Shown here: piece by piece, positions 1 to 40,799 of the stretch | How positions within the stretch are numbered: the stretch's first letter is position 1 | How the letters are laid out: every line of letters begins with the position of its first letter | Origin: Cloeon dipterum | Lineage: Eukaryota > Arthropoda > Insecta > Ephemeroptera > Baetidae | Reading direction: 5' to 3' | Length of the DNA stretch: 64,000 nt | Assembly: GCF_949628265.1 (NCBI RefSeq) | Contig: NC_088788.1 | Location: 8,370,001 to 8,434,000 of the forward strand | Notes under the pieces: model-generated | The model's input: only the letters and a program-made list of their open reading frames with translations | The model's database searches: none | What the model was told of the DNA's origin: nothing | Program-made: the position numbers and the translations under genes

Positions 1-55
1 ATGAAGCCAGATGAAACATAGAAATGATTTTATAAATTAATACATTTTATTTCAG

Positions 56-3377: not shown

Positions 3378-4020
3378 TCATTAACAAGGCGAGCCAACAG
3401 GCTGGTCACAGATTTTTGTTGTCAAATATATTTTTTTCTAAACAAAAATCAAGGATTAGAGGTATTAATATTTTTCTATGCAGATTTTTAAAAATGCCAT
3501 TCTAAAAATAAAAGCACTTGTAAAAATGGCGGTAGTTTCTACTGAATGGAAATCTAGTAGTTTCTAATATATAGATGTATTTTTATTTTGGTTTCTAAGT
3601 TATCTTTATCATGGTTCTGTGGGGCAATTTTTCCCCATATATTGCCACATCCAGACAAATAAATTCAAATATGAACATTTGCCAAAAGAGATGTGGTTCA
3701 ATATCTCTTAAGTAAGGAAATTCTCTTTTCCAACATTATCATCTTTTCATTCTATCGGGTCATGGAAAAATTTCATAGCATCCCTCGTGAAGGCGTACAA
3801 TTGGGAAATTAACATCAATTCAACAATCCAGCTCCACTACTTGGGTGAAAAAACAAAAGGAAAGCATGCAAAACATTCTACGCTTGTTGAATCACATTGG
3901 AGAAAATCTTTAATCTTAAATCAATTGATTTTAATTAAGGAATGTAGAGTAACCATAAATATTTTAAAATATTATACTGTATATTTTTAATGTAAAATTT
4001 TTCTACATTATGAATTTGGT

Positions 4021-10525: not shown

Positions 10526-13500
10526 ATGAGCGACAATGCATCGAATGGGGCCACTACCAATAGTTAATAAGATTTATTTATTTATTTGCCGGATATTTAA
10601 CATTGAAGTTCAATTTACAGAAAATTCTGCAAAAAAAAGTATTGGCTACTGGAACAAAGACGAAACGGTTGGGTATGATATATTTATGATATTTCTCTTT
10701 AATTATTCTCTCTTCTTAATTATTATTCTTTGATTTTCCTATAACTTTCTTTTAGAATTATACGGATATATTAAAAGGAATCTCGCTAGGATTTGATATT
10801 ATAAAAGGGGGGCATGTAGGCTTCCCGCCACGACTGATTGTAAGTTGAGCCGCGAATAACAAAAATTGAGTCTCCATCTCCACGCAATGTCATTCCCTTG
10901 ATTCTTCATTTATATTTCTCATTTTTGCCTATGGTTACTATAGAGTTAACTGAATCTCAAGGAACTTTGACTAATGCGTTAATTTTTATGCACTTAACGC
11001 GTGATCAAAAAGTGAACAATTTTTTAATCACGCCAATCGACCTCCCCTTTCTATTCAATAAATCACAGCTTTCACTTCTCTGTCTAAAATTTAAGTTTTA
11101 ATCACAGCAGACGCAAAAATGGATTTCTTTCTTAATAAGAGTAACAAGGCTTTGAAAAAGGCAAATCTCCTTAATCATTTTCAGAAAAAATACCCCGTAA
11201 ATGCAAAAATTAGAGTTGCAGCAAAACATTCAAAGTGAATGAGCACTGGAAAAATCTGAAAATATTTATTCATTTAAATTATCTTTCCCCACTTATAGTT
11301 CAGTTTTTTTCTAAATTTAAAGATGTCAGGAATTTACCTGACGAGAATACGATCAGGCTCCTCCCTTCGCTCTCCCCTTTGAGCGCCCAAATGGTAAACA
11401 TCGTTTATATCGGTAACAATAATATTGATCGTATTCTCTTCAGGGGGCGGATCACGGGGGTGGATTACGGCACCGTTTTTTTAGCTTGATCTTGAAACAC
11501 TGTACAATGCTTGCCTTATGCCCAGCGTTGCCATTTTTTTCTCAAGGTTGCGTTGCCGAGATCCGCCCCCAGGTAAATTCCTGACAAAAGACTTAACCAG
11601 TAAGCATGTGATTTTTTTTAAATAATTATATCATAACTATATATGCTCTGAAAATTGGGATAGAGCTAAAATTATTTCAGGCGTCCATTTTATCTTGCGA
11701 AAAAATCGGCTTCAAAATTTGCATGCTTATCATGTGGCGAGCAAATGTCTCCTTATTGAAAATCGTGATTTAATTCATCAAATAGAAAATTTACGTCATA
11801 ATTCGCACAAAGTTGGATGGATCATGACGAGAGGAGTCAAAACCAAGCATAAAATCACCATTTAATTTAATTTTTAAACAGCAAAAAATTAAAAATTAAC
11901 TTATTTAATCCTAATTTTATTATTGCTGGTTGTTGAGCATATTGTGTAAACGGTTTAAACTAACAATTCAAAGTATGTTAATTTTATATAGTCTACAATT
12001 CAAAATCATTTTAATTGTTGCCCTTTATCAATCCTCTTTAACTATTTGAATTTTTCCAGGCCAACATGCATTTTGATTATTCACTACGATTTCGCCGATC
12101 AAGAAAAACCCATGAATCGCAGTGTAGATGACAAAATAGACGTCGAAAATATTACGTCTACTTTCAAATCAGTCGGCCATATTTGTGAGACATCTGATCG
12201 GAAGGATGAAGTGCTGAAGTTAGTTGGCAGTGAGGATGGATTAAGAACGAAATTCCAGCTCGAAAGTAAGCTAGATTTTATTATGTAATATTACAGATTA
12301 GAATTTTCGTTACATATTTAGAGAACCAGACACCCGAGTTGTTCATTGTTTTTATCATGACGCATGGAAACAAGGATGGAAAACTTACAACACATCATGA
12401 CGAAGAGTTTAACGTGTATGAAGTGTGCGAAAAACTGAAATCAAACCCACTCCTTGAAAACGCCATGAAACTTATATTCATTTCTGTGAGTGTAAAGTTA
12501 AAACTGTTTCATGCGCACACTAATTGATATATCAAAGGCGTGCCGTGGACAAATTGTAGACGAGTTGACTCAAGCAGTATATATCAGAGAAAAACTACTT
12601 CCTCCACGAGGCACAGTTTTCAGCAAAGATTTGGACAAAGAAAATCCGGACAACCTGAATGCAACACGCGTGACAACTGACCCCAACAGCGAAAATTTTG
12701 TCATTATGTTTTCCTGCGTTGAAGGTATGCAATTTTCTTCGTTTGCAATTGAATATCAGGAATTTATTTCGTCTGGCAGGCACATATTCCCTGCGCTCAG
12801 GAGGATCGTACTTTGTCAAAAACATCTGCGTCTGTTTCAAAGAGTTGGACAGGGATGTGGACCTTGAGGAGTTTCTAACCAGAATCATGTGGTACCAACA
12901 TAATGACCCCAATCAAAGAGCAAAAGGATACACATCAACGCCAGAAGTCAAGATTTTTAAGCACAGCAGACATCTCACCATTGTCAAGCAGTGTGCTGAA
13001 AAGAATTGCAATGATTTCTTATACAGGTGGGAGTCCGACGATGCGTACCGCCTTCTCACGCGAAAAGCACATATCTTCGCAGCATCCGACGAAACATACC
13101 AGTCAGTAAGCGAGGAGTTGAAAAAACATTTTCAGTTTGAACCAAAGCGCTGGGAAACACTAGCAGAGCTGACAAATTCTGGTTAGGAAAATATTTCAAA
13201 TTTTCAACCCAATTCCTATGTTTAAATCACTTTTTTACAGTTTCCCACGAGAGTGGAAATAAAGACGGCTGCATGCTGATTTGCGTCGTGGCTAAACTGG
13301 TCACAAATAAAAACCAAGAAGTTTGTGTGGTGACAGACAAAGAGAGAATCAAAATAAAATCGATCCTGGGCATCCCAATCGGTCCTATGAATGCAATATG
13401 GGTTGGAAAACCTAAAATTTGTGTTTTCCTAAACGCAAAGACCGTTTCCCAATCATTCTCGGTCGATATAGATCAACAGGTAAAACCAATTTGTTTCAAG

Positions 13501-16500
13501 GTTCAAACAACTATCTGTAAAGATTTTCCGAAAATTTCTTCGGGATTACCTAGCGCACAATATCCAACTGATCCGTAAAAAGATATTTAAGCTATACAGT
13601 AATTTAAATTTTTACTAAGCCTCTTAAAGAGGAATGATAGTGAATTTCCCCGCAAAATCCTTTAACACACATACAGATTGGGTCCGAAAAATCATGTACG
13701 GTTAAAAAAATACATAGGCAGCACTGTAAATTTTCGAGAAAATCGGCCTCAAACTAAGCATTGTTTTAAATGGAGAATTTTCAACGGAATTGTGTAATCG
13801 CGATTTTCTCTGAAATTCCGCATTTCCCCAAAAAAATACTCTGGCTGTCCGATAGATCTCGATGAGAGGATTCCAAATCATGTTAGAAAACATAGTGTAG
13901 CACTGTAAATTTCGGAGAAAATTGGCAAAAACAATCTGATTGGTCAGCCGCTGCTAGCCAACAGGGGGGGGGGGGGGGGGGGCGTTTCACGCCATCGCTT
14001 CTGGTTGCATTACAGAAGGTGGCCGGCGCGCAACTTAATTATCATTTTAATAACGTTTTCATTATCAGAAAAATTTGAAATTTTCGCACATGGTAAACAA
14101 TGAATCTGTCCTTGAAAATCAATAAAAAAATTTATTTGTATCATACGTAGTCTCTGATAACCATAAGGGTCCGAGTTTGCCTCTAAAAATCATTGAAATA
14201 ATTAAAATGAAAAAACATTTTTTCTAAGATGATTCTTGAATAAAGTAAATTAATTTTGGGTATTTCGATTTTTCCCAAAAAATTTTAAACGTTCGTTAAC
14301 GGACATCTGAAATTTGTAGAGGATTTTTTTCGAAAATTTTAAATTTGAGAAAATTTTGCTGAGTGGGGAAAATCTGGAAATTTAATCAGCTCTCTGAATT
14401 TGACGCTACTATGAACAGGTGAATTTTAATGAAGCCAAACACAGACCCCTTTTGAAAATCTGCAATTTTTGAAAAAAACAAAATTTCTTTCAAGACTCAA
14501 AAGCACTATTTTTTATTTTCTCAGTATTTCATAATTTTTCTCACCCCGGAAGCAATTAATTTCCAATGCTAAAAAAGTAGGCGTAACCGGTAAAATTGGA
14601 TTTTGGGGCACTTTTGGTCAGATTTTTAAATAAAAAAATTAATATAAAATTCTACTTTAAAATGCGCAACTTCAAATAATCTTAAGCTGGAAATCACTAA
14701 AAAATAATTTATATATTTAAACGCCATTTCTCAAGGATGAGAATGAATTTAAAAATTGACCCTTGAGTGAAATCGAGACAAACGTTAGTTTGAAATATTT
14801 TAGAGTGGTTATTGGATATTTTGCCCTATGATATTTTCAGACTTCTCTTCCTGGAAACAGGGCGATACATTTGAATTGTAAGGGTTGCGTTTCCCTATGA
14901 TTTTAAAGACCGTAAGAGAAACTTGGCCTAGTAATATTGCTAATTGTAAAATAGTGGACCTTCCTACGTGCAAACGTCTCAAAACCTGTAGAAAGGGGGC
15001 AGTATAGTTATTAGAGGACAAAACGTGGAATTGTTTTTTCCAAATGTCCGGCCTTTTGTTACAGTCAATTCCCATATTATGTGTTTTGAGATACTAAATT
15101 TATATTTACACATGTTTCAGAAGTACGAAAAGACGAAATTATCGATCAGCGGAACCATCCACGCGGGCCTCTTATCTATTATCCTGCCACAAGAAAGTAT
15201 GAATGAAGCCAGATGAAACATAGAAATGATTTTATAAATTAATACATTTTATTTCAGATGCAGTTAAGACTTTCATGGAGACCCTCGATGATTTCACTTC
15301 TCAGAAGAAAATTGATAACGCCACTTTCCAGCAGTTCTTTTTTTCACTGCTACAAGCATCAGAGAAGAACGGGGAAATCCCTCCGATGGTTGTCACGACT
15401 CTACACAAAACCTTACAAATGAAGTTTCCGCCATCCTGCTACACAGAAAGCTTCACAAAGACTAACACTAAGAATTGGGAAACAGAGCCATGCAACTTAA
15501 AAATACTTGAATCGTTGATCAGCAAAAAAGACAAGAAGGCAAGACAAGAATCAGCGAAGGTGAGTTCCCAGGGCGCAAAACTAAAGGTCGATGTAACGAT
15601 TGCCAAGTACCCATCTACTACAAAACCTATTTCCTCAAAAGAAGCGACAGAAGTTTCAAACACTGAAGTAGAAACTTCCGATGACGCCGTAGATGAGCAC
15701 ACGGGCTCAGAGGGAGACGTGGACACGGTGTACGTGGTGTCGGCCGATGCGGGCTCGGGAAAATCCGAGCTGGCTAAGTATCTCACTTTTTTCGCCCAGC
15801 GCACTCAAGAGGCAACATGTGTGGACCTGATGACGATCATGTACCAGTTCGTGATGAAATTCGACTGGGAAAAGCATCAAAATTGCCTCTCAGCTTTTGT
15901 CCAAGAGTGCGGAGAGCATATAAATCAGGAATTGCAGAACGGACCGAACGGAGTTTTGATTATCGACGCGATTGACGCTTTGCTTGAAGATCTGCGGAAA
16001 ATTGTGCTTGATACAGTGCAAGGGCTGGCAGAGAAAAAGGTGCCTATGTGGATTTTCACAAGCCCTGAATACAAAGATGAGTTGCTGTCGCATCTTTCTG
16101 GAATCTGCTCAATCAGCGTGATCGAAATCGACCCTCTTTCCAAAGAGAAACAAACCGAATTTCTGCAGCATAAGGGGTTTGAAAGAGTACAAATCGACCT
16201 TCTTCTTGAGAAAATCAAGCAGCAAAAAGCAGAGGACCTGATCAGTAAGATTGGTTACCTGGCAAAGCTCTCAACCTTTCCTGACCTCGCGAAAAATCTT
16301 GAAACCATCAATATTTACAAACTAAGTAAACATATCGTTGACACGGCGATCAAGTCGTACTTAAGTGAATATAAGCCAGATTTGGAAATTTCGATTCAAG
16401 AAGAAGTTTATAACGAAATCATGAATGAACTCACTAATGGGGCGCGCAAATTTTTCCTACCAACTGAAATCCAGAAGACACCCCCCATTGAAAATGGGAA

Positions 16501-16690
16501 AGAAGCCCTCGACGACCACTTCTTCAGATACCCTGCGTCCAAGGTGAGCGGAACCCTGGCCGCCTACCTCTGCGTCAGAAATATGAGATACAAACTGGAG
16601 ATTTCTGAAGAGCTCAAGGATGCTGACAAGATAGCAAGCCTTCAACGCATGTTTAACTTTAGACGCGAAATCTTGAATAAGATGTTTTGA
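10526..16690 (+). CDS. Cpn-B: caspase - pseudocaspase - P-loop NTPase fusion protein (about 931 aa)
   Basis: Exons read from splice signals: 10526-10562, 10621-10672, 12060-12265, 12322-12485, 12538-12724, 12780-13181, 13241-13479, 15121-15196, 15258-16690. They total 2796 nt and stay in frame, and each phase matches Cpn-D. The N-terminus is short, with an IGYW motif and no CARD/DED. Residues ~50-349 form a caspase domain: LIIHY strand, catalytic His in MTHG (about 113), catalytic Cys in ACRG (about 155), and p10 segments YSLRSGGSYF and LEEFLTR. Residues ~300-510 repeat the fold: VGKPKICVFL stands where caspases have GKPKLFIIQACRG, but Cys and His are absent (LNAKT; VVAKL), and it closes with IPPMVVTTL. 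A Glu/Asp-rich linker leads to the NTPase: Walker A GSGKS (about 620-624), Walker B VLIIDAID (about 691) and FTSPE, where the paralogues have TRPE. Probably cytosolic; expected roles are ATP-dependent oligomerisation and proteolysis (inference). Confidence 0.85.
13964..13982 (+). repeat. Run of 19 guanines in a Cpn-B intron
   Basis: An uninterrupted poly-G tract inside the 13480-15120 intron of Cpn-B. Such a run can form a quadruplex and is prone to length change and to sequencing error, so the exact count is uncertain. Confidence 0.8.
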
Positions 16691-17764
16691 TTTAAGCAAT
16701 GCTGCATCGGTTTGTTAGTTTAATGTATGTATTGATATGTTATTTCTATCACCTAATCTTTGCATTACGTAATTTTCAAACGTGTGTTTAATTGATTTTA
16801 TATTATTAAAAAATTTCAGTTTGATAGTCATATTAATACTTTTAATTGGTTTCTCCCGCAATTATTTAATGGTGGAGCAATATTCATGCACCAGAGAAAC
16901 GAATTAGCCCTTCGTCCAACTATTGCAATTAAAAACGCCTTGCAAACGTTAGCAAGCTGTGCCGCATAACAGCACTTCGCTGCGAGTTGCCTGCTTTACA
17001 AGCGGTATAGATTTCATTTTAAGCAGTATTTTTGTTGATACGTTCAGGACAGGTCTTCAAGAATTAATTTGCTCAGTCCTTTTTCAGTGCAATAATTTGA
17101 ACTGAGGAGTAAATGATAGCGCCACAGGAGGTACAAAATTGCTTTGACAAAGTTTCAAGGAAAAGAAGACGTCAGGTGCTGGAGCAGATTCTGAGACTAT
17201 AATAAAGACGTCCAAATAGCTTTAATACGGCCAAGGTGTTTGGAAAGGAAAGTAAAAAATTCAAACTTTCTCCTCACAGGAAGAAATAAGACTATGAGTA
17301 GTATAATCCCTCAAAGCACGAAAATTCGAGTTTAACACATAAATGCAAACGCGCCAGTTTCGCTGGCTAAAAACGAAATTGCGCTCTGCCACCTCTATAC
17401 AAATTTAGCCGGTCTTTGCATCATATTGATCAGCGCCGACGAGACCCAAGGGCCTCATTGAGCCCAATACTCTACGCAAATAAAAAGGATAAAAATGTCA
17501 ACACTCACCAGGAATGTCTCGAATCCAAAATTAAACCACGCATGTTCCTGCTGATCCTGAAAAAAATCACAAAATACATCACCTCATAATTCACAACTTT
17601 TTCATCACGACCCTTGCAAAATATAACAACTTTAAATTCAATTCAGACACTAAAGCTGAACTAGGTTAGCGCAAACTGAACACAGACTGCTCTATAATTG
17701 ACAGACACTTAGAACATATCAAATTGTTTAAACCAGCCCATTGGCTCGCATTGTGAGGCACTCT

Positions 17765-18012
17765 CAGGAGTGTCAAAGCAATGGGAGGTATTTGAGCAGT
17801 TGGGACATCTAATACTGGCTACCCAATGTCAGAGATGGCAAAAAGTTGTTAGTTTAGTGACTCGAATTGCTGGCTGGGATGCGGAAACGGGCTGGGATGC
17901 GCACCGGCGCCGACTCGCTACTTGCTGCTTTGCACCTTTCCAGCATGCGTGATTTGGCTTCACGGGACAAATGTCTAGCGTTTCAATGCAGTCCTCGGTG
18001 CGGAGGCAAGTG
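17765..18012 (-). repeat. Dispersed SINE-like repeat, copy 2 (inverted)
   Basis: Reverse complement of the repeat at 3115-3377, sharing GCAAAGCAGCAAGTAGCGAG, GGCGCCGGTGCGCATCCC and GCCATCTCTGACATTGGG. It ends where a second element (about 18030-18830) begins, so the two may be nested or simply adjacent. Confidence 0.55.
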
Positions 18013-18029
18013 GCCCTTGAGTGGGCTCG

Positions 18030-18832
18030 TAGAGCGTATTCCAAGACAGGAAATTGAAACAGGAAACAAGAATTCCTGCTTTTTCCTGGAATTCCGGCAG
18101 GACAGGAAAATATTTTTCAGGAACAGGACAAGACAAGAATTTTGTTTCAAAACAATTCCATTCTTGGTCTATTTTATATCAAATATACCTCATTTATAGA
18201 CAGCATTACTTTTCATTTTGATACTGCCTTACAATGTTTACTTTCTTTCATGTAACTATAAATATTTTTCCAAAAAAGCCTAAAAATTATCCACGACGTT
18301 TACAATTTTGCTCTAAAGCTTTAATTAAAATGCACAACTCTTTAATTATAGTCAGCGGTGTTCGAAAAAACAAGCGTTTTGCGGAAACTATCAACTGTAT
18401 CAAAAATAACATTTTTTAGAGTTTTTCTGCAATTCTTTTTCATTTTAAGCACTTTTTGAAATACTTTTTGTTGGATACTAAATTCTGTGCGGGGTGCATA
18501 TTAATTTTTCCGTTTTGTTCATAAAGGGGAATTAGATGAATTAGAAATTATATTCTCTATCAAAATTTAAACACTTAGAAAATCTGTCAAATGGAAGTCT
18601 CAAATAATTAAAAGCAAACAAAAAACAGGTATAAATATTAATATGGAAGAATTAGAAGACCATTTTGTAAATTTGAATTAAATTAAAGAAAAAAAACAGG
18701 AAAAAACAGGAACAGGACAGGACCGGAAATCCAATTTTGGAACAGGAACAGGACAGGACAGGAAATTTTTTTCCCGGAACAGGTCAGGACAGGAACAGAA
18801 AAACCTTTCTTGAATACGCTCTGGTGGGCTGG
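18030..18832. mobile_element. Element with short inverted ends and GGACA-type satellite tips
   Basis: The left end AGAGCGTATTCCAAG is mirrored by CTTGAATACGCTCT at the right. Inside each end is a stretch of AGGACAGGAACAGG-type simple sequence; the centre is AT-rich and non-coding. A related GTCCC/GGGAC stretch lies near 9390-9510. I could not define target duplications. Confidence 0.4.
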
Positions 18833-19251
18833 GTCCCTGTGCGGCCCGGTGCACCCATGTTATCCGTTCGCGGTGTTATTGGGACTCGGGTTTCAGCATT
18901 CGTGCTAGTGCAGTGTGCGCCCTTCCCGGTCCTCGGAGAGGGATAAAAAGAGCAAAAAAAAAATCGTTTGGATCGGCCGATCCGATAAAATTTTTACCTA
19001 TCACGAATCTTAATTATTCCTCATTTCCACTAGTCTAGCGCGAAATAAATTGAAAAAATCATGACTTTCAATATCGCGACGGTGCTTTCCACGTCTTGAT
19101 TTCTTAAAAAATATATTGGGCCAACATTGGAATATTTAAGTCAATTCTTGATTTTTAAAGAGTATTTTTTGAACTAATAGCGTCATCTAAATTAAGGACG
19201 GCAATAGTTCATAATAATTATTTTTCAACAGTGTTATGAAATCAATGAGCT

Positions 19252-19257
19252 TTTATT
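19252..19257 (-). terminator. Polyadenylation signal overlapping the Cpn-C stop codon
   Basis: On the minus strand AATAAA overlaps the TAA stop of Cpn-C (19253-19255). If used, the transcript would have a very short 3' untranslated region. Confidence 0.4.
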
Positions 19258-22200
19258 TTATAGATCTGGACAGTCGACATTTCCAAAGGTTCGCGATTAA
19301 AATTTGAACATTAATTGGTAGCTTTTCAATAATTCCCAATCTCATTGAGAAATTTTCTTCCTTGACGATGAGGTATGCCGCCAACGTTACGCTGAGAGCA
19401 GCTACTCTGGATCCCTGAATGCGGAAAATCCCATAATCAGCAATCAACGCATCTTGCTCCTGGTTTACATTTCGGCCGAGATAGAAGTCGTAGGCACGCT
19501 CGGTGAGGATTTTAACCTGTTTACTATACAGGTCACGGTAACGTTTGAAGCCTGGAGTCTCACCAGTGCTTCTCAGGACGGATACGATGGTCTCCTCGAA
19601 AACGTGCTTGCTCAACAGGTAAAAATTGTCTATTTTCTGCCCATTTAAATGAAGAAAGTCGGCGACTTTTGCCAGATTGCCAACCTTCTCGATCAGGTCC
19701 TCAGCATGGGCCTCCCGGATTTTCGCCAGGATTTTTTTAATCTCCGTCTTGTTCATGCCGAGATTTTGGTGCAGAAAAATTATCTGGCTTTCTTCAGAGA
19801 GCTTGTTAATGGTGACGACATTTACAGGGCAAATTTCCTTGAGACTTTCCTTCAATGCGTCTTCACATTCCGGTCTCGTGGTGACCACCAAATCGATTTT
19901 ATTTCTGGCTAGGGATTCGATCATCCTGAGCATGCTCCTCTGATAATAGCCTGGCTGCAACGAATCAAAGCCGTCCAGAATTAGGAATTCGTCATTCCCG
20001 AAAGGCTGATGCAGCTCGCCTCTGAATTTCTCAATGAATGCTTTATATCCTTTGACCCAGTGACGAAACGATTGAATAAACCTGATATTATTCCTCAGGT
20101 ACACCAGGGTGACCGGTCTCTGCTCCCTCTGAGCCCTTTCTGCTAGAATTTCTGCAAGAGCTGTCTTCCCAGAGCCTATCTCTGCTGACACTACGGTCAC
20201 TGAGTATTTTGAAACGTTTTTTTCGCCTCCTCTGGCATCTTTCGCAATTTTTGCAGAACAGAGGCTCCGCTCTAGCTCATTCATTGAGTAATCCTGGCTT
20301 GTATCTCCTGTCCTCTGTGTGAACTTGTCTGTGAAGAATTTCACCGGAAAATCCAAACACAATCTATATTCAAGCGTGCTTGACACCATTGGAGGCATCC
20401 CGTTCTCGACCTTTGCTTTTCGCAAGAGTGCAAAAAATAACTGCAGAAACGAAGTTTTCTCTATTGTACCTGGTTTAGTAAATTCTTGTAGCGTCTCTAC
20501 GAACAATTCTAAAGAGTCTGTAAAAGATATCAGCATAGCGGGCTTATTTATTGTAAAAAAATGGGGCACCTTTTTGAGGAAGAATTAAACTCAGCAAGCC
20601 CGCGTGCAGAGTAGAAGCTCTTGTGAATGCTGTATTTTGATATGACTTTTAACATATTATTATTTTTTATTTAATTATTTGAAATCTTAAGACTTACTGG
20701 ACTGTCTGATTGAATGAATCGATCACTCTTTCTCTCGGTAGCATGGGTAGCATGGAGGAAGATAAATATTTTTGGCTTTCCAATCCACTGTTCTGTTTTA
20801 GGACCAATGGCAGAATATTGGATGTTTTTAATCGGTGAAGAAACACCCCCAATATTAACGCACAGTTCACGGTCATCTCCACAATAAAAGAGGGGAGCTA
20901 CGATGCAAACGAGAATGCAGCCAGCGTGATTATCTTTTTCGCTAGATACTAAAATCTATACATTGTATTTCTATTAAGATTTAATTGAAACTTAAACACG
21001 CCTGAATTCTGAAGCTGTGCGAGACCGTCGTGATTTTTAGTCTCAAACCCAAAAACAGTCTTCAAGCTTTGTCCTAAGGTTCGTGCGTGTACTGAATCTC
21101 TGCTTTTTGGGGTGATGTACAAATGCGCCTTGCGTGTCAAGAGAGCAATATCCTGGTCTGATTTCCAATCGTAATCATATTGGATAGGCTTTTGGGTTCC
21201 TGACAACGGTGCTATTTTCTTGGGCCTCAGTCTGCATTATAAAGCTGTCAATTTTCTCTCAATATACTTATTAAAATTGACGGCAAATCCAAAAAAAGCG
21301 AAGCTGCCATGTTGAATCACCCACTCAGATAGTATTAGAAAATAAATGCATTTTCAGTCGATTGATAGAGAGAAACAATTTAAATAAATTTTAATTGTTG
21401 TTAACTGCAACAGTAAAAATTTAAATTTATAAGCCAGTTTTCTTAGCAGATTATTTTGATCGTCTCGTTAACATTTGTTAGGAAACCTGTTTGCTTTGTA
21501 ATAAAATAAGATTTCAAACAAGAGGACTATTTGTAAATCATGCGAACTGTGTACCAAACATTTTTACTATTTACAGTGCTTCCTTGATCAATATTGGATT
21601 TAAGTAAATCCCTAGAAATTATATTGTACATATTGGCAATAGGGATATAAAGCGTTTCGCATTTTATCGACCCTCTTTTACATGGCGTCTTCTCTCATCC
21701 TAGTTTTGCCGTCCTTACCATCACGCACCTCCAAGACGTGGGACTCTCGAAAAATTTCTTTGATATGGTGAGCGGCCTATGCTTGAGAACCTTGATTTCA
21801 GGGGTGGGTCCGTACCCCCTCTGAGTTTCCGTGTAATGGTGTTGGCACATGCATCTGGTGAGAAACTCATCGAGGCCGATGTCCTTCTCCACAGTCCTAA
21901 AGGTTGCGCAGAACGCATTCACCAAATTTGAGCCATTCCTAACCAGCGCAGAAGTTGCTTTGAAATGCAGATAATTATTAATCAATCTTTGATAAAATGC
22001 AATAAAATTTTTACTTTCAACACATTCAAATATTGTGACGCAATTTTCGTGGATCGGGTCAACATCAACAGTCACTCGCACTGCATTCAGATTATTTTGC
22101 CCTTTTACGTCAATATCTCTGCTCATCATTCTGTTTTTTCTAGGGGGAGGGTTAAACCGCCCTTGAACCAATTCGTCTACGATTAGACCTCTGCATGCCT

Positions 22201-22955
22201 TATTGTTAGTTGGAAATAAAAACATATTTTAATGTTACCGTAATCTTAATTTTAATTACCGCAATGTAAAGGAGCTTGAGGGCATTTGAAAGAGCAGGAC
22301 TTTGGTTCAATACGGACTTCAGATGTGAAACATGAAATTTTTCTCCATGATCCGTCCCTAGTGTTCTGCCTATGTTCCCATGGGTGATGATAAAAATGAT
22401 GAACAGATCCGGCAATGCATCGTCTGATGAAAAAGAACGTATTTTATTTATTTTGTACTCAAAGAAAAACGCATAATTAAGCTTAATCTACCTTTCAGAC
22501 CAAATATTTTCCGGATATTATGCTCATGGGACAAAATTTCGCATATTTCTTGGTATTTAGCAGAAGTGTCGTAAAAGTGCACATGGCGGCCTAATGTATC
22601 TCTTAGATTTGCTATGCTCTCTTTAACATGTTTAGTTATTTCTTTATTTTCAATATCAAGATACGAATAGTGTATCATCAGCACACAGGTTGTCCTAAAA
22701 AAAATCTGGTTAAAACCAAAACTAAAATGACGATGGTCCACGATGGCATCGAAAAATCCGATCTAACATGATAAATCTCACAAAAAAGTAGTAATAAAAG
22801 GATTCGATTAATCCCAAAAATTAATACCTCACAGACGATAATATAGGAAAATCGAACCTGACGGGTTTTGACTTGTCTTCGTCCCAGTAGCCTATGCATT
22901 TCTTGTAATCCACCAACATTTTCTCAAAATTTTTGCAATTCATTTTAAAAGCCAT
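19253..22955 (-). CDS. Cpn-C: caspase - pseudocaspase - P-loop NTPase fusion protein (about 899 aa)
   Basis: Exons on the minus strand, 5' to 3': 22955-22858, 22694-22492, 22423-22260, 22198-22015, 21957-21729, 21231-21002, 20948-20698, 20645-20570, 20517-19253, totalling 2700 nt in one frame. The start at 22955 follows an in-frame stop; a further 5' exon is possible. Caspase domain: catalytic His in ITHG (about 115), Cys in ACRG (about 157), p10 segments VRNGSN and LDEFLTR. The second, inactive caspase-like domain has QWIGKPKIFI followed by LHATHA in place of QACRG. NTPase: Walker A AEIGSGKT, Walker B LILDGFD, sensor motif TTRPE. Two oddities set it apart: an extra intron (21728-21232) splits what is one exon in Cpn-B and Cpn-D, and the intron after 21002 appears to start with GC rather than GT. 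It is the most diverged copy and is inverted relative to the others. Confidence 0.82.
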
Positions 22956-23640
22956 CAGCTAGACGAGACAAGTTTGAAAGTAAGAGAGATCATATCATGG
23001 AGCCATCTCTTCCACAGTCGCTGCCCCACTTGACACTGTGAAAAAAAAAATTAAAAATGTATGAGGAAATTACGCTTTGGCCTATATTACAAGATATAAT
23101 TTGTTAACACAATCTGAACAAGAGAGTCAATAAAAAATATTGTGCCTGTTAAATTTATCTTTGTTCAAAATATAGCTAACCCCATGGCCTTTGAAGGGCC
23201 GCCGTCCCAGAAGCCTATATGCTCTCTTTTTCAGCATCTGTCACGAATTGAATTTATTGCTTAAAATATTAATTCACACATTTGAAATTAATGTACCTTG
23301 GTTAAGCCTAGTGAAGAGTGTCATGTTCCTCCTTTAGGCGCCGAACTCGAACTACTCTATATCTTCCAATGAAAGCTCTGAACCCCGCCACTGATACTAA
23401 CAAAACTTTTGTTTAATCATTAGACAATAAATAATATAGAGGAAAAACAAAGAGCAGCGTTTCTATTAAAGATTAAAGACATGTACAAACTACTGGGAGC
23501 ATATAAAATATTCTTGCTTCCTGGGCTTGGTTGAATTCGAAAATTTTGATTTGCAACTCTTAAAATGTATTTAGATAAACGTTTAGAAACTTCACTGAAA
23601 TCCGTATTATTACAAAAAAAATACGTACAATAAAGATATA
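22956..23640. other. Upstream region of Cpn-C
   Basis: Probably carries the promoter and 5' untranslated exon of Cpn-C on the minus strand. A pyrimidine-rich tract ending in CACAG (minus strand, near 23040) could be the acceptor of an untranslated exon that holds the start codon. I see no clear TATA box and no other gene. Confidence 0.35.
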
Positions 23641-26600
23641 CACTCAAAGAAAAAATTCTCATTTTGAGACGAAAAAATCGGCTCTCAAGTGAGAGCAAAA
23701 AAAATTCGTCTCACTTTGAGAGCGAAAAGCGGCCTGCCGCTTTTGCGTCTCAATTTGAGACGAAAAAATCGGCTCTCAAAAGAGAGCGAAATTTTTCGTC
23801 TCACTTTGAGAGCGAAAAGCGGCCGGCCGCTTTTGCGTCTCACTTTGAGACGAAAAAATCGGCTCTCAAGTGAGAGCGAAATTTTTCGTCTCACTTTGAG
23901 AGCAAAAAGCGGCCGGCCGCGTTTCGCTCTCAAAGTGAGACGAAAAAATCGGCTTTCAACTGAGAGCGAAATTTTTCGTCTCACTTTGAGAGCGAAATGC
24001 GGCCGGCCGCTTTTGCTTCTCAATGTAGAGCCTATTCTGTTTTGTACTTACGATCGGCTATGGCAGGCCCCGCAGAACTTTATTTTCAATCCATTTGATG
24101 ATCCGCTTGGCCGAAAAACTTGAAACGTCGATCACGAACAGCATTATTACCGCACTTTTTGCCACTTAGGGACAATGCACTTGACATAAAACGACCTCAA
24201 AACCCGACTAAAAACGCCAGCGTGAGCCCTTGCCGCGAAAATAGACGGACCAGCTGAAACTGAAACTTTAAAATGTAAACAATGACACTGATAGGCCAAT
24301 TTTAATTTTTTGGACCAATCACAAATTAGTTCTGGTTATAACCTCACATCCTTGACTTTGACTGGCGCGAAGTCAGTCTGAAAAAAAATAGAAACAAACT
24401 AATTTTTTTCAAATCAAGAGAGATGCCAACAATAATAAAAGTGGAAATAAATTATAAAATAAATACAAAATTAATTGAAATAATAAGTGGTATAATAATT
24501 AAAATTATGAAAGAGTAAAATATAAATTAATATGGATAAAAGAAATTTAAATTAAAAAAATAAATAATTTAAACATGAAAATAAATACAGTCTTTAGGAA
24601 TTATTGTTAAAAAAAACTTCTTAAATTCAAATCTGGAATATATAACATGCTTCATAAAACGAATAGCAGGTAGACTGGACATGGCTTAAAGAAGTATACA
24701 TGGTTAGACTCTCAGTTACACTGTTAGGAATAAACCTTTTTTTAAACCAATTGCTTGCATAATTTTGAATGTTAATTTTGATTAAATCTTTAGAAATCTA
24801 GAGTCGGCCACAGGGACATCATAGATTTCAATTTCACGTACAAATTTACATGTTTTAATGTTTCCTGAGCGGCATATTAACAATGAGCAACATAATTTGA
24901 ATCAATCTGGCATATTTTTTGGATGAGGACTGTCATCAGTGATGTAAATTAGTGATTAGAAGCATCGTTTTCGTCTTCTTTCATGACAGTATGGACCTGC
25001 TTTTAACTTGGAAATTTTATCAAGAATTTTAATTTTAACCCACCAATTCTAATTAATCTGAATTGAATATATTTAAACCATCTCAATTAAGAAAAAACAT
25101 AATAACGGCGCATCTCTTCCAAATTTCCGCAAATTTGCCTGAAACTGCCCCGATGGTAAAATGTGATAACATGCACCAGGAAAGGAAAACATATGGCTAC
25201 AAATAAAAAAATTGATTGGACGCGATTTTTTGACTTCAAATTCGAATTGCAGCAAAACAATCGCCACTGGAGCTTTGGAACTTGTTGTGCTGTTGCAGAT
25301 ATTTACGATCATCCTTTTCAATTTTAAAATTTCAAATAATTTTGCTAAAGGGGACCTTGACCTTCGACCTGTGAATGTTTTTAAAATGAAAAGTCGCCCA
25401 GGAACGTAAACTAGGTTGGGCAGTGTAAATTTCAATTTTAAAAGCAAACGTAATTGTCTCATAAAAATTCAAAAAACAAATCGCGACCAATCAATTTCCA
25501 AATTCGCGGAGAACTGCGCCATTATTATTAATTTCTAAATCTAGACGGTTTAAAATAGAGCGTCCATCGGGATTATTTTTGTTGTTGCGAGTTTGACTTC
25601 TTCGAAAATTATTTGCCGGGTTCGGCCCAGTCCCGGGACAATGTTCTAATTATTTGCGTGATATCCCAGAAGCCTGAAAACAAATTCCCGGGAAATCCTG
25701 GCTTTCTGGTCAATCTATGCATAAATGTCTCAAAATTTTTATTTGTAGCAATATTTTCCTTTCCTGGTGCATGTTATCACATTTTACCATTGGGGCAGTT
25801 TCAGGCAAATTTGCGGAAATTTGGAAGAGATGCGCCGTTATTATGTTTTTTCTTAATTGAGATGGTTTAAATATATTCAATTCAGATTAATTAGAATTGG
25901 TGGGTTAAAATTAAAATTCTTGATAAAATTTCCAAGTTAAAAGCAGGTCCATACTGTCATGAAAGAAGACGAAAACGATGCTTCTAATCACTAATTTACA
26001 TCACTGATGACAGTCCTCATCCAAAAAATATGCCAGATTGATTCAAATTATGTTGCTCATTGTTAATATGCCGCTCAGGAAACATTAAAACATGTAAATT
26101 TGTACGTGAAATTGAAATCTATGATGTCCCTGTGGCCGACTCTAGATTTCTAAAGATTTAATCAAAATTAACATTCAAAATTATGCAAGCAATTGGTTTA
26201 AAAAAAGGTTTATTCCTAACAGTGTAACTGAGAGTCTAACCATGTATACTTCTTTAAGCCATGTCCAGTCTACCTGCTATTCGTTTTATGAAGCATGTTA
26301 TATATTCCAGATTTGAATTTAAGAAGTTTTTTTTAACAATAATTCCTAAAGACTGTATTTATTTTCATGTTTAAATTATTTATTTTTTTAATTTAAATTT
26401 CTTTTATCCATATTAATTTATATTTTACTCTTTCATAATTTTAATTATTATACCACTTATTATTTCAATTAATTTTGTATTTATTTTATAATTTATTTCC
26501 ACTTTTATTATTGTTGGCATCTCTCTTGATTTGAAAAAAATTAGTTTGTTTCTATTTTTTTTCAGACTGACTTCGCGCCAGTCAAAGTCAAGGATGTGAG

Positions 26601-27301
26601 GTTATAACCAGAACTAATTTGTGATTGGTCCAAAAAATTAAAATTGGCCTATCAGTGTCATTGTTTACATTTTAAAGTTTCAGTTTCAGCTGGTCCGTCT
26701 ATTTTCGCGGCAAGGGCTCACGCTGGCGTTTTTAGTCGGGTTTTGAGGTCGTTTTATGTCAAGTGCATTGTCCCTAAGTGGCAAAAAGTGCGGTAATAAT
26801 GCTGTTCGTGATCGACGTTTCAAGTTTTTCGGCCAAGCGGATCATCAAATGGATTGAAAATAAAGTTCTGCGGGGCCTGCCATAGCCGATCGTAAGTACA
26901 AAACAGAATAGGCTCTACATTGAGAAGCAAAAGCGGCCGGCCGCATTTCGCTCTCAAAGTGAGACGAAAAATTTCGCTCTCAGTTGAAAGCCGATTTTTT
27001 CGTCTCACTTTGAGAGGGAAACGCGGCCGGCCGCTTTTTGCTCTCAAAGTGAGACGAAAAATTTTGCTCTCACTTGAGAGCCGATTTTTTCGTCTCAAAG
27101 TGAGACGCAAAAGCGGCCGGCCGCTTTTCGCTCTCAAAGTGAGACGAAAAATTTCGCTCTCTTTTGAGAGCCGATTTTTTCGTCTCAAATTGAGACGCAA
27201 AAGCGGCAGGCCGCTTTTCGCTCTCAAAGTGAGACGAATTTTTTTGCTCTCACTTGAGAGCCGATTTTTTCGTCTCAAAATGAGAATTTTTTCTTTGAGT
27301 G
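23641..27301. mobile_element. 3.66-kb foldback element with satellite-tipped arms
   Basis: Two arms of about 1.57 kb (23641 to about 25213, and about 25727 to 27301) are nearly exact reverse complements, with about 0.5 kb between them. The ends read CACTCAAAGAAAAA and its complement, flanked on both sides by TA (23639-23640, 27302-27303). The first ~380 bases of each arm consist of four ~90-bp tandem units. The rest of the arm is AT-rich unique sequence. No transposase-like frame is present; the open frames across the satellite (RRKNRLSSES-type peptides) are by-products of the repeat. The layout resembles Foldback-type transposons. It lies between the divergent 5' ends of Cpn-C and Cpn-D. Confidence 0.85.
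23667..24025. repeat. Four ~90-bp tandem units, each internally palindromic (left arm)
   Basis: Units start at about 23668, 23759, 23849 and 23939 with GACGAAAAAATCGGCT. Each contains GAGAGC/GCTCTC and GAGACG/CGTCTC inverted pairs around the 12-bp palindrome GCGGCCGGCCGC (one unit has CTG in its centre). The mirror array is at about 26925-27280. The unit can fold on itself as well as with the opposite arm. Confidence 0.85.
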
Positions 27302-28100
27302 TATTGTGCTGCAAATGATGGCGCAAGTAAATCGTTAATAATTAGGCCTAATCTGGGATGATTATCTCACTTGGACAAACCATGTCTAACGAAAAAAAGC
27401 AATTTTGTTTAATAAATCGCGAGCTAGCCTTGAGTCAATGGGTGCGAGTTGATTGTGCTTTCAAGCACTTTAAGAGCACACTAGACCAGTGACGCTGCCG
27501 GCGCAAACAGGTGCTCTTTATTTCTGCGTCTCACCTTACTCTTTCTCGATTAGTGTAAAAATCAACGTAGTTATTAAAACGTAAACTAAAAGTTAAGTTA
27601 ATAGGAAATCGTTAAAAAAATTTTGTATTCTTTTAGTTATATTGCATTTAAAATTAAATTAATCAAATTTTAAAATTTCATTTTATTTAAATAAAATTAA
27701 TTTCGAAATTTTCGTCATTAATTTATAAATAGCTTTGACTTGTTCAAACAATTAAATATATTTAGTGTCCGTGACGTAGAGAAGTGTGGCTGTGTGGATC
27801 TTCTTTTCATGTGATTTAATTTAGGAGAGAGGTTCAATGAATGAGTTTTATGAAACACATCAGTGTCAGAATTGCGGTTAAATTGCGATTAATAATTGAT
27901 CACTGTCGGTAGGAAAGAAAGAACATTTTGGCTGCTGAAGGCGTATGAACTGTTGAAAATTGCGGAAAATTAAACAATTAGCATAAAAAGAGGATTAGTG
28001 GCAAGCTAAATAATTAGTTAACCTATAGTGCAATATTAATAGGATTAATAGCACCGATACTGAATTAGAAATACCGGTATGATAATAAGGACAGTGACAC
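27302..28100. other. Spacer upstream of Cpn-D
   Basis: AT-rich with no gene recognised. It borders the foldback element on the left and the putative Cpn-D promoter on the right. Confidence 0.5.
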
Positions 28101-28109
28101 GCCTACCTC

Positions 28110-28181
28110 TATATAATAACCACATTGCGGTTAGTGTAGAAGCTGCGCTAATTAACAAGCAATTAGCTGACTAAAACATCA
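28110..28181 (+). promoter_or_regulatory. Putative promoter and 5' non-coding exon of Cpn-D
   Basis: TATATAAT at 28110 is followed about 20 bases later by an initiator-like GGTTAGTG (28129-28136). A possible untranslated exon ends at a consensus donor ATCA|GTAAGT at 28181. The coding exon of Cpn-D follows an acceptor TTTATTCAG at about 28740, as this model needs. The arrangement parallels the one proposed for Cpn-B. Confidence 0.45.
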
Positions 28182-28759
28182 GTAAGTTTGACATGAAACA
28201 TTTGATTAAACAGCTTGAATATCTGCCGGAGGCAATGCATGCCAAATATAGTAGTCTCCGTGTACATTTAACTATTAATAATTAAATTATTTATAACAAC
28301 ACGAGTGACTGTACACATGACTCACGTACAAAACTAAATAATAAAAATAAAACTGACACAAGCGCAAAGAGAAAGGAGTTGATGAAATTCCAGAATTTTC
28401 TTAAACTCGAGAGTAATTAAATTCCCAACAGTTCATATCACACATATGGGAAAGAAACCGGCATTATATCGCAGGTATTTGTTAAACTAGATGCTGAGCT
28501 GACAAATTTCTCCCGATGAAACACATACATACGGCACCAAAACACTCCATTGAACGACTGAAGCCAAAACTCAAGCCAGTATAAAGGTAAATTTTTATTC
28601 ATAAAAAATATAAAAAATCACTTACGAAACAGATCAAGGCATTGTTTTGGTTCTGAACTTATATGGACCGATCGCTTAAAAATTAAAATTAAACCTGTGT
28701 ATTTTTAAGTATTTTTTTAAAAATGATAATTTTTATTCAGGTATCGTTTTACCATCGAG

Positions 28760-31700
28760 ATGGAATCAGCGGCCAAAAGGAAAAAAATGTGTCGAAATGA
28801 TTCTGCCGAAGGTAAATATAATCAAAATTCAATTATTATACTAGTCTAAGTTTTAAATTTGATTTAAAGGCAGTGCTGAAAGGGTAATTGGCTTTTGGGA
28901 TAAAGCCGTTGCAGCAGCAGCAGCAGCAGTGAGGTATATCAATTTAAGTTAAAGAGGACAATGTTCAAGTTCAAAAACATTAAAAACAGTCCTCTCTGAT
29001 CGATAATTAAAAACAACAGGTCCAGATTGATCAATGGTTCATTATTTGCAGGCTGACGTGCATTTTGATCATTCACTACAATTACGCTGGACAGAACAAA
29101 AAAGATCGGAGCAAAGACGACTCAGCAGACTGCGAAAGGATTAAAAAAACTTTTGGAACTTGCCTAAACACTCGTGTCCGCGACACAAGTGGCCGCAGCG
29201 ATGAGGTCCTTGATCTAATCGGCAGCGAAGAAGGAATGAGAAACTTATTCAACCTGAATGGTATACTAAAAGCAGCAGTTTATTATTAAAAACTGCTTTT
29301 CAATTAATAAGCGTGTTCTCTATAAATGCAGGCGATCAAAAACCAGAACTTTTCATGGTATTTATCATGACGCACGGAGGAAGCGATGGACTGCTAAAAA
29401 CTCATCATGGAGATCAGTTCTACGTGTCCAATGTGCTGGAGCAGTTGCACAGAAATGCCTCTCTTGAGGACGCACTCAAGCTCCTTGTTGTTTCGGTAAA
29501 TTTATAAATTTCCTAACTTTATAAGTGGATAGATGAAAAGTTCAAGGGAAAAAATATCTAGCAGCAGATTCGGCGTCTAAAACTTCAAATAAGTCCATGC
29601 AAAATAAAAAATAATTTCACTTTTTTATTACACAGTGCCTGAATATTTGATATTCATTAATTTATGATGATTCAAGCGTTTCAGGATTTGCTATATTTAT
29701 TTAAACGTGTAATCAAAATTAGTTTTGCTAAAATTTTAAGGGGTATTTTAGTGCAAAGCATGTGATACAAATTGATCAGTCCATGAAAATAAGCTGAGAT
29801 CGTAGGTTAATTTTTTTCTAAACGCAGTCCCCAAATGCGTTGCTGTAATAATAAATAAAATTACTGCTTGACATTTATAGGCTTGCCGTGGAGACATTCA
29901 AGAAGAGGTTATATACCGGAGGGAAGAGATGCCGTTTGATGTCCAAGGCGTTATTTTAAGCAGTCAGCTTGATATACAAAAATTTCAAAATCTGAATGCA
30001 ACTCAGATCAAGAGTGTGTCTGGGATGGAGAATATCGTCATTTTGTCTTCCTGCGTTGAACGTCGGTGAATGAAATATTAATTCATGGATAAATTTACTA
30101 ACATTATTTTAAAACCAGGTACTACTTCCCCTCGAGCAGGTGGAACATTTCTCATTCAATCCTTCTGCAATGCTTTCGAAAGGTTGGAGAGAAACGTAGA
30201 TCTAGAAGAATTTCTCACCAGAGTCTTGAATATTCACCACTCGGAAAACAAAAAGTGGGGATACGGCTCGACACCAGAGTACATGGTGATCACGCAGAGA
30301 AGACTCACCTTTTCAAGGCAAAGCTTTGACGGAAAAGGCCGCGAAGAAGAAGAAGGGTCTTACAGCTGGCTGTCAGATGCACAAACTCCTCTTCTCAAAC
30401 GTGATGCTCACGTTTACTTAAATTCAGCCAGCAGCTCAACTCGTGAGACGGTGAACTTGATCAAAGAAGACTTGCGGAAAATTTTCAGCTTTGATGTAAA
30501 AAACCACAGCAATCTTAAGCAACTTCAGAGCTCAGGTGATACACATTATATAAAATCACATATTGGAAAGCCAATTCCACTTATGTGCATTCTTGGCGTA
30601 AAAATATTTTGATGCTAATATTAAAAATCGGTTCAGTCAATCGCGGAAGACACCAAAAAAATATTTTCTTAGCTGTCGTTTGTGCAGAAATTCTGGTTAT
30701 CAAAACGTGAAATGAGAAAATTAATGCTATAAATGCAAAAAATCTAGATAAAAACATAAATTTCAGCGCCAGAAGATTTAAATAAAATTAGCGGCTCTGA
30801 TCAAAGGAATTTCCCTGTTCCCATGATAATTCTTGACTGTCTTAAATTACAGTTGGCGATCAGGACGGGGAAAAAGCTGGCTGTATCTTCATGCTCATCG
30901 TGACCATGCTTTCCAGGAATGTAACAACTGGAGAACTTTGCGTTCTTATGAACGGACAAATGATACCAATGAAATTTGTTTTGAACACAATGATCGGTCC
31001 GACCACTGCCAACTGGATCGGGAAGCCAAAAATTTGTGTTTTCCTGAATACTTCAGCGGACACTGAATCTCTTGCTATTGATGTTTCCAGGGTAATTTAT
31101 GTTATAAACATTATGCAAAGATCCATATTTTTGTGTTAGGACTATCCACGAACCCAATATACGGTCAGCGGAACCATCCACTCAGGCCTTTTGACCTTAA
31201 TTCTGCCGCAAAATGGTAGTTTATTTGAAGATTTAAATTTATTTGGTTTAATCCGCGTTTTTCTTTCAGATGCTCCTGATTTTTTCCTCAAAACGCTCAC
31301 AGATTTTGCTGCAACCAAGAAAATAGAAAGCGGAACATTCCAACAGTTCTTCCACGAAGTGCTGCAAAAAGCGTCGACCGCGAACGACATTCCCCCGATG
31401 ATCGTCAGCACTCTGCCCAAGAGTCTAGAAATGAAATTCCCCAAGCCAATTGTGATCGACAGCTTCAGGATGACGACGCCAAAGGAAACCTTTAACGTCT
31501 CTTTAACAGATCTGGAGCGTTTGGTCAGCATGGCAGGCGCAATTAAAATCTGGCCAAACGCCCAAGCAGAGGAGACTTTTGCCATTGACGCAGCGTCAAA
31601 GGGAGTTGTTCCGAAAGGAGCGAACCCGATGACTCAAATTGAGGAGCCCTCAAATATGGAAGTCGAAGTAATGGCAGAAAGCGAAGAAAATGAAGCAGAA

Positions 31701-32600
31701 GAGCAAGCTCCAGAGTACAATGTGTTCTTGGTGGTGGCTGAAGCTGGCTCTGGCAAATCGCACCTGGCCGCACATCTGGCAAAATTCGCCCAGAACCGGC
31801 GGTTGGTCACTCTTTTAGACGATCCTGACAGGAGCAAAGGATTTAAAGCTCTTCATGAAGAATATCTTAACAATCAGCCTTTTGGTGCGAATCAAGTCTT
31901 ATTTCTCGACGCGATCGATGCTTTGCATGAAGAACTGCTGGAAAAAGTGCTGAGGATGGTGCAAGCCCTCGCCGAAAATAAGGTGGACCTCTGGATTTTT
32001 ACGAGGCCCGAGGGCGGAGCCAGGTTGAGGGGTCTTTTCCCTGTTACCGTGATCGAGATCAACGATCTCTCCATGGAGAGCAAAAAGATATTTCTGCAGC
32101 AAAGCGGATTCAATGATGCTAAAATCGAACAGGTCCTGAGAAAAATTGAAATGGAAGACGCTGGCGACCTAATCAGCATAGTCGGCAACCTCGAAAAGGT
32201 CTCTTCATTTCCAGAGCTTGCAGATCCAGAATCCGTCAACATTTACGAATTGTGCACTCACATCTTCCAAGAAGCGGTCGATTCGTACATGGAGAAACGG
32301 CACGCATCATTTTCAAAGACCAAACGTAAAATTCAAATAGATAAAATCGAGAAAAATCATTCCAAACGCGCCTCTATCTACTTCCAAGAAGACCAAGACA
32401 TCAGTGCAAACGAAACTTGCTCAGGATACGACGTTTTTCACGTCGCCGACACAATGGCTGCCTACCACTTTGTCAAGAATGGCGGAGTTGAGAGTGTTGA
32501 TCAAATCGTCGAAATGAAAATCGAGCCTAGAAAGAAATCATGCCTCAAACGCATGATTGTCTCCAAAAAAGTTTTTGATCAAGAGCTCTGCTCTTATTAA
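28760..32600 (+). CDS. Cpn-D: caspase - pseudocaspase - P-loop NTPase fusion protein (about 910 aa)
   Basis: Exons: 28760-28811, 28870-28933, 29052-29260, 29332-29495, 29881-30061, 30119-30535, 30853-31091, 31140-31215, 31270-32600, totalling 2733 nt in frame. The N-terminus has a basic AKRKKM patch (possible nuclear signal), an IGFW motif and an alanine run from a GCA repeat. The caspase domain has His in MTHG (about 123), Cys in ACRG (about 165), and p10 GGTFLIQSF and LEEFLTRV, close to the caspase GSWFIQSL and FMHILTRV blocks. The second caspase-like domain has WIGKPKICVFL then NTSAD instead of the catalytic pentapeptide, and FMLIVTML instead of the His-Gly strand, closing with IPPMIVSTL. 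NTPase: Walker A AEAGSGKS (GSGKS about 627-631), Walker B VLFLDAID, sensor FTRPE. One donor (after 30061, GTCGGT) is weak but keeps the conserved phase. Intact and probably functional. Confidence 0.87.

Positions 32601-40746: not shown

Positions 40747-40799
<53 letters not shown>

Follow-up and report, generated by a model that had tools for sequence, protein, structure and literature searches.

A stretch of 64,000 nucleotides from the ephemeropteran insect Cloeon dipterum (contig NC_088788.1 of RefSeq assembly GCF_949628265.1, positions 8,370,001 to 8,434,000 of the forward strand; hereafter the window) carries a tandem family of genes, each of which encodes a caspase (unit 1), a second, caspase-like unit (unit 2) and a NACHT-type nucleoside triphosphatase (NTPase) in a single chain. 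With a confidence slightly above even, we propose that this animal gene family specifies an all-in-one death or inflammatory protease, composed of an active caspase, a built-in pseudocaspase partner and a NACHT switch. Animals normally divide the caspase, its partner and a switch of the type found in nucleotide-binding leucine-rich-repeat receptors (NLRs) among separate proteins; apoptosomes and inflammasomes consist of separate sensor, adaptor and caspase proteins. Three complete genes (B, C and D) were rebuilt, along with the last exon of a fourth copy, A (Table 1).

The splice sites were set by eye and with a script, and nine spliced exons give a single open frame in each of B, C and D. All eight intron phases are common to B and D (1-2-1-0-1-1-0-1), while gene C lacks the first intron of these two and has instead an intron between units 1 and 2. 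For the exon 5/6 junction of C, 24 open-frame joins were listed, and one with a clear donor and acceptor was chosen; exon 6 of C has a GC donor, and the other borders are GT-AG. A tblastn search of the window with the three proteins recovered the same exons plus copy A, whose stop-to-stop frame runs from 28, with the acceptor AG at 54-55, the exon start at 56 and the NTPase part at approximately 508-1476, and which is 74% identical to B over the last exon. Identity with B over the whole protein amounts to 36% in C and 40% in D. The matching of motifs, frames and phases across copies so diverged is not due to chance, an argument built on the splice, motif and divergence results and not on a separate null model. 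Short introns, GT-AG borders and few long open frames give the window a eukaryotic character; neither a tRNA nor an Rfam match at the gathering score was found in it, and the bacterial promoter patterns that it contains were dismissed as meaningless here.

Among B, C and D, synonymous differences reach 0.71-0.77 per site, which is near saturation, and nonsynonymous differences 0.39-0.44. For B/C and B/D the uncorrected nonsynonymous/synonymous ratio ranges over 0.51-0.52 for unit 1, over 0.47-0.56 for unit 2 and over 0.57-0.60 for the NTPase, and the acidic linker gives 0.67-0.95; for A/B the last exon gives 0.67 (NTPase 0.58, linker 0.90). The family is under purifying selection. An earlier note, made from the letters of this DNA alone, had reported three genes of 899-931 codons, and the open frames, the conserved intron phases and purifying selection together indicate that this family is real.

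The same note had placed caspase and NTPase in one chain with no adaptor. In B and D, unit 1 ends and unit 2 begins within exon 6, and in all copies, including A, the last exon carries the NTPase together with the final part of unit 2; because the domain junctions of B and D thus lie inside exons, two genes are unlikely to have been joined falsely. No CARD, DED, PYD or death domain was found in three full-length scans (E<=1), nor in 69 upstream and intron open reading frames (ORFs) of at least 38 amino acids (E<=0.1), which were taken from 120 such ORFs of at least 30 amino acids, and the Pfam caspase match of B starts already at residue 33. At the other end, the stop codon lies in the NTPase exon and the proteins end shortly past the NACHT module, at most about 50 residues from a conserved T(L/M)AAY stretch that we take to be the winged-helix end of this module; the 18 families listed by the three full-length scans (E<=1) include no LRR, WD40, TPR, ankyrin or other repeat. 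That one chain joins a caspase to a NACHT-type NTPase and lacks an adaptor domain is therefore supported, at the level of splice models, by the within-exon junctions of B and D and by the empty adaptor scans.

By its sequence, unit 1 is a metazoan-type caspase. The catalytic His and Cys motifs, THG and ACRG, occur in 3/3 genes and are aligned to HG and ACRG/ACQG of caspase-7 and caspase-8; in B, MTHG begins at residue 111 and SACRG at 153, and SLR occupies 219-221. The residue preceding the A of ACRG is Ser or Ala, not the Gln of QACXG, as the caspase active-site motif is given in the available text of one source (PMC2575513). The small-subunit Arg is aligned in B, stands in the same register in D and is displaced by one position in C, and in the caspase-7 alignment the large-subunit Arg of B falls one residue out of register. 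In PDB, B alone matches caspase-7, with ACRG, the small-subunit TYSLR..GSYFV and the next helix aligned, and a three-member profile matches caspase-8, CED-3 and caspase-4/11; the caspases matched are metazoan caspases (among the best 60 of 96 and the best 60 of 95 matches). The designed repeat protein 4yxx, the top PDB match of the profile, was rejected as a chance product of repeated short helix matches, and two more designed repeat proteins are among the matches of this profile. The linker between the subunits contains an invariant Asp (D186 of B), which is a possible candidate for a processing site.

Sequence motifs and a structure model together identify the product of the last exon as a predicted P-loop NTPase of the NACHT/STAND type (STAND, signal transduction ATPases with numerous domains). 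All 4/4 NTPase exons, that of A included, have Walker A (GSGK[ST]) and a Walker B of the form D..D, and 3/4 have TRPE; two of the four copies, A (32.7 bits) and C (32.5 bits), exceed the Pfam NACHT cut-off of 26.7 bits. A first structure model, of the A exon as a single sequence, had a mean predicted local distance difference test score (pLDDT) of 40.8 and was not used. The second, an AlphaFold2 (AF2) model of the A copy NTPase with three paralogous segments, has a mean pLDDT of 59.3, with residues 1-140 averaging 55-89 in blocks of 10 residues, and its helices and strands follow the P-loop order. A Foldseek search with this model placed NLRP3 first (9.6e-5), and 6 of the 34 matches (E<=0.001) are NLRs by title; most of the others are presumably AAA+ ATPases. 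PADLOC and NCBIfam gave weak matches only, including the STAND defence proteins Avs2 (9e-5) and EruA (5.7e-4), which are taken as no more than backing for the STAND class.

The middle part, unit 2, is a probable dead, or inactive, caspase. Searched against PDB (E<=10), its profile has seven matches, four of which are caspases, matched in the large-subunit region and led by an ancestral caspase-6; the two control profiles retrieved no caspase (0/1 when reversed, 0/4 when column-shuffled). Two printed caspase alignments reach GKPKI, the strand leading to the catalytic Cys, and extending the PDB alignment by hand gives the register in which other residues take the Cys position in B, C and D; the strand-loop equivalent to the catalytic His region holds no His. 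Between exon 3 and the start of unit 2, 8 of 300 shuffles reach the alignment score; the other three matched exon pairs gave 43, 91 and 255 of 300, and the six mismatched pairs of units 1 and 2 gave 27 to 282. The middle introns of the two units lie at different residues, and a phase-2 intron before unit 2, as in unit 1, is found in C only, at the ambiguous exon 5/6 junction. The common order of intron phases is only suggestive as a sign of duplication, and as the comparisons of unit 1 with unit 2 are not significant, no internal duplication is claimed.

The domain assignments of the earlier note thus stand in part. Its THG and ACRG motifs and Walker A/B motifs recur throughout the family, whereas its TRPE-type sensor holds for A, C and D and is TSPE in B. 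The caspase (C14) profile is significant for B and D but just below the curated cut-off for C (19.6 against 21.4 bits), and the full-length Pfam scan found C14 in 2/3 members only; for NACHT, A and C pass and B and D do not. A P-loop fold for the NTPase part agrees with the partly confident AF2 model and with Foldseek, so that the model does not show the outcome, an NTPase part of another fold, that the note had named as refuting its reading. The second caspase-like unit is moderately supported, by the PDB profile and its negative controls, but has no Pfam match and failed in the comparison with unit 1.

Caspases need a dimer partner, and NACHT proteins such as NLRs form rings. From the arrangement of domains we infer a pseudocaspase fold for unit 2, dimerisation in cis, ring formation, a trigger and a role in cell death or immunity, as follows. 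At rest, in its ADP state, the NACHT module would keep the chain closed; a trigger signal, probably from another protein, as sensor repeats are missing from the chain, or alternatively from the NACHT part itself, would let this module take up ATP and assemble into a ring. Caspase/pseudocaspase pairs would be drawn together by this ring, the pseudocaspase would act as dimer partner to the active unit, like FLIP(L) for caspase-8, and the caspase would thus be turned on with neither a CARD nor a DED adaptor. FLIP(L)/caspase-8 heterodimers are described as active in the available parts of two papers (PMC7586951, PMC11121540). D retains all checked motifs, B retains the caspase but lacks the sensor Arg, and C retains the switch with a weakened caspase: the copies look as if they were taking different roles, perhaps within mixed rings.

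Several results weigh against an all-in-one protease that works in this way. Lacking sensor repeats, the chain would be a "one-protein inflammasome" with no obvious sensor. In the NTPase part, B (24.6 bits) and D (22.6 bits) lie under the Pfam cut-off, residues 247-329 of the AF2 model (its last quarter) have a pLDDT below 50, and the TM-scores of the 34 Foldseek matches are low (0.24-0.34), as expected where the C-terminal part of the model is poor; the PDB sequence searches retrieved no NLR (four matches for the NTPase profile, an ABC transporter first, and two weak, unrelated ones for the A exon as a single sequence). At the unit-2 end (68 codons) the A/B ratio is 0.89, near neutral, and recent constraint there is therefore weak. 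With the sensor Arg of B lost and the substrate pocket of C apparently degraded, no single activity seems to be clearly kept in all copies. The middle unit may be a partner or a brake, and by analogy coral caspase-X, which becomes more lethal once its inactive domain is removed (PMC4715348), would favour a brake over a helper. Unit 2 itself has no Pfam caspase match in its members; hhalign pairs it with unit 1 at a non-significant probability of 1.9% (E 0.026), the whole-unit score of the profile alignment is reached by 38/100 shuffles, its small-subunit half alone retrieves no caspase in two PDB matches, and the three remaining matches of its profile (E 0.31-0.39) comprise a lectin, a homologue of OS-9 and an uncharacterised protein from a bacterium. 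It could accordingly be an unrelated linker or dimerisation domain, with the protein being simply a caspase plus NACHT, an explanation that we regard as rather unlikely: caspases make up the majority of the unit 2 matches as against 0/5 for the two controls, and the intron phases of unit 2, 1-0-1, follow the order of unit 1, for which chance alone would give about 1/27.

Somewhat less probable again is that the chain acts mainly as a regulator or decoy, restraining or titrating other caspases in the manner of FLIP or of a caspase-like decoy, with little output of protease and NACHT as a platform for assembly. One of the units looks catalytically dead and the active unit of C is degraded, the inactive domain of coral caspase-X seems to damp the active one (PMC4715348), and caspase-like decoys of insects are mentioned in the accessible part of PMC3141678; a mere decoy, however, sits poorly with the His and Cys kept by unit 1 in 3/3 genes, with a small-subunit Arg in register in B and D, and with a unit 1 ratio that, among the three domains, ranks lowest for B/C (0.52) and second lowest for B/D (0.51). 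It is very improbable that two adjacent genes, a caspase gene and an NTPase gene transcribed separately, have been wrongly joined. It is true that exon 6 is connected to exon 9 through the predicted splicing of exons 7 and 8, and that the B intron before exon 8 is long (the three introns from exon 6 to exon 9 measure 59, 1,641 and 61 bases in B); yet these introns are short in D (317, 48 and 54 bases) and C (53, 52 and 52), exons 7 and 8 are conserved, phases included, in 3/3 genes, and, besides the junctions within exons 6 and 9 of B and D, the order is the same in all three complete copies, so that a mistaken join would need to recur in three diverged copies and on both strands.

Table 1. 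Genes, exons and predicted domains of the caspase-NACHT family, in positions of the window (residue numbers are those of each protein)
Feature	Position	Strand	Evidence
Gene A, last exon only; gene cut by window edge	28..1479	+	Pfam NACHT 8.2e-8, above cut-off
Relic of gene B 5' flank, exons 1-2 and intron 2	about 3992..5404	+	four blastn pieces, 70-79% identical
Gene B, 931 aa	10526..16690	+	splice model with phases; Pfam C14 above cut-off, NACHT below
Gene B exons	10526-10562, 10621-10672, 12060-12265, 12322-12485, 12538-12724, 12780-13181, 13241-13479, 15121-15196, 15258-16690	+	
Gene B caspase unit 1, residues 18-285	10635..12988	+	Pfam PF00656 5e-17; PDB caspase-7 7.6e-7
Gene B unit 2 (probable pseudocaspase), residues 297-520, Ala at Cys position	13022..15454	+	PDB profile, ancestral caspase-6 E 0.02; controls
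Gene B predicted NTPase, residues 609-931; ADAGSGKS, VLIIDAIDAL, TSPE	15719..16687	+	Pfam NACHT 2.5e-5, below cut-off
Gene C, 899 aa	19253..22955	-	splice model; exon 5/6 junction ambiguous
Gene C exons	22955-22858, 22694-22492, 22423-22260, 22198-22015, 21957-21729, 21231-21002 (GC donor), 20948-20698, 20645-20570, 20517-19253	-	
Gene C caspase unit 1, residues 19-284; ITHG, AACRG	21755..22901	-	Pfam PF00656 7.9e-4
Gene C unit 2 (probable pseudocaspase), residues 313-544, Ala at Cys position	20321..21173	-	alignment, PDB profile
Gene C predicted NTPase, residues 583-899; AEIGSGKT, FLILDGFDSL, TRPE	19256..20206	-	Pfam NACHT 9.2e-8, above cut-off
Gene D, 910 aa	28760..32600	+	splice model
Gene D exons	28760-28811, 28870-28933, 29052-29260, 29332-29495, 29881-30061, 30119-30535, 30853-31091, 31140-31215, 31270-32600	+	
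Gene D caspase unit 1, residues 22-291; MTHG, SACRG, SPR	28881..30321	+	Pfam PF00656 2.9e-13
Gene D unit 2 (probable pseudocaspase), residues 305-533, Thr at Cys position	30361..31466	+	alignment, PDB profile
Gene D predicted NTPase, residues 617-910; AEAGSGKS, VLFLDAIDAL, TRPE	31716..32597	+	Pfam NACHT 1e-4 and AAA_22 4.8e-5, both below cut-off

Between A and B lies a relic of the start of gene B, in which tblastn gives no match to exon 3 or beyond and which is a broken remnant of tandem duplication. The same interval contains an inverted repeat (6421-6856 / 7324-7759) with arms of 436 bases, 99% complementary and 467 bases apart, that looks like a foldback-type element. A longer inverted repeat between C and D (23698-25192 / 25751-27245) has arms of 1,495 bases that are 100% complementary around a 558-base spacer, the outer end of each arm containing shorter inverted repeats (77-82% complementary); it is either a very recent inverted duplication or an artefact of assembly or long reads. 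From 37500 to 62000 many segments recur at spacings of approximately 3-5 kb and 15.7 kb, with copies 60-96% like the reference, and low-complexity stretches there read as Thr/Ser-rich, mucin-like putative frames (for example, 40698-41411 on the minus strand). Near the end of the window, an exon-like frame at 63339-63752 on the plus strand matches UDP-glucuronosyl/glucosyltransferases (Pfam UDPGT 8.9e-13). Among 76 non-gene ORFs scanned, selected from 132, two match fatty acid desaturases (best 2.5e-7 at 38816-39352 on the plus strand), and there are single matches to Pfam NNH2 (NACHT N-terminal helical domain 2; 3.1e-4) and to a LITAF-like zinc ribbon (5.8e-4), which may be due to chance.

We tentatively suggest, at rather less than even confidence, that an animal lineage has re-invented (or kept) a bacterial all-in-one death switch, which joins a caspase, a FLIP-like pseudocaspase and a NACHT ring-former and whose tandem copies are diverging in catalytic and switch residues. 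The idea that "all-in-one" proteins made of an effector plus STAND are ancestral, with adaptors coming later, has been raised as a possibility (PMC4986451). Arthropods and nematodes have been reported to lack NLRs (PMC4986451), as have "various arthropods" (PMC7308585), and an NLR with LRRs has since been reported from shrimp (PMC12370184), as far as the available portions of these papers go. A single-chain version would bear both on the proposal that all-in-one proteins came first and on the reported absence of NLRs from arthropods and nematodes. If our suggestion is true, an arthropod would possess an apoptosome or inflammasome with neither adaptor nor sensor, in a phylum from which classical NLRs are often said to be missing, and this natural single-chain version would provide a minimal system for how nucleotide-driven assembly and a pseudocaspase control a caspase.

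Proteins of the NLR/Apaf-1 type within the STAND class are like the present ones in their NACHT-type P-loop NTPase, NLRP3 being the top Foldseek match. NLRs recruit a separate caspase. They typically carry CARD, PYD or death domains together with LRRs (PMC7308585), whereas none was found here: neither the C-terminal LRR nor the N-terminal CARD, PYD, DED or death domain of a bona fide NLR was detected. In bacteria, STAND proteins with caspase effectors are described (PMC8195603), and one survey counted NACHT in 15 prokaryotic metacaspases (PMC3501461). The prokaryotic metacaspase-NACHT-WD40 proteins (PMC3501461, PMC2853523) also combine a caspase-fold protease with a NACHT NTPase in one chain; they are, however, metacaspases, often with WD40, in contrast to the metazoan-type caspase, second caspase-like unit and absence of detected repeats here, where no WD40 was found and the caspases among the PDB matches listed are metazoan ones.

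Pairs of active and inactive caspase domains are known from other animals. Coral caspase-X, a multi-copy family with both domains in one chain, kills mammalian cells, and its authors compare the pair to procaspase-8/c-FLIP (PMC4715348). Its inactive domain is N-terminal, whereas here the probably inactive unit is second, and the word NACHT is absent from the main text of that paper. Mammalian CASP16 (PMC12198278), which has been modelled as resembling a caspase-14 homodimer, likewise has tandem inactive and active caspase domains; in this case the inactive domain comes first, the arrangement is ascribed to exon duplication with internal sequence similarity, and the available text mentions no NACHT. 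The LRR-caspase and TNFR-caspase genes of amphioxus (PMC2575513) represent a similar shortcut, in which a receptor part and a caspase share one chain and adaptors are skipped, but the receptor part is LRR or TNFR rather than a NACHT switch, and a pseudocaspase is not mentioned in the text available. Within the open-licence PubMed Central literature, outside of which most subscription papers lie, neither an animal caspase-NACHT fusion nor a combination of caspase, pseudocaspase and NACHT was found; the accessible part of PMC2246300 adds nothing on such fusions. An architecture figure for sponge NLRs lists CASc (caspase) among its domain abbreviations (PMC12909245), and a sponge caspase-NACHT protein is possible. 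Collections of viral contigs and prokaryotic genomes, which have little bearing on animals, gave pattern matches and no confirmed relatives. The individual parts are thus already known, and what may be new, as judged from this partial literature, is the joining of a caspase, a probable pseudocaspase and NACHT in one animal protein.

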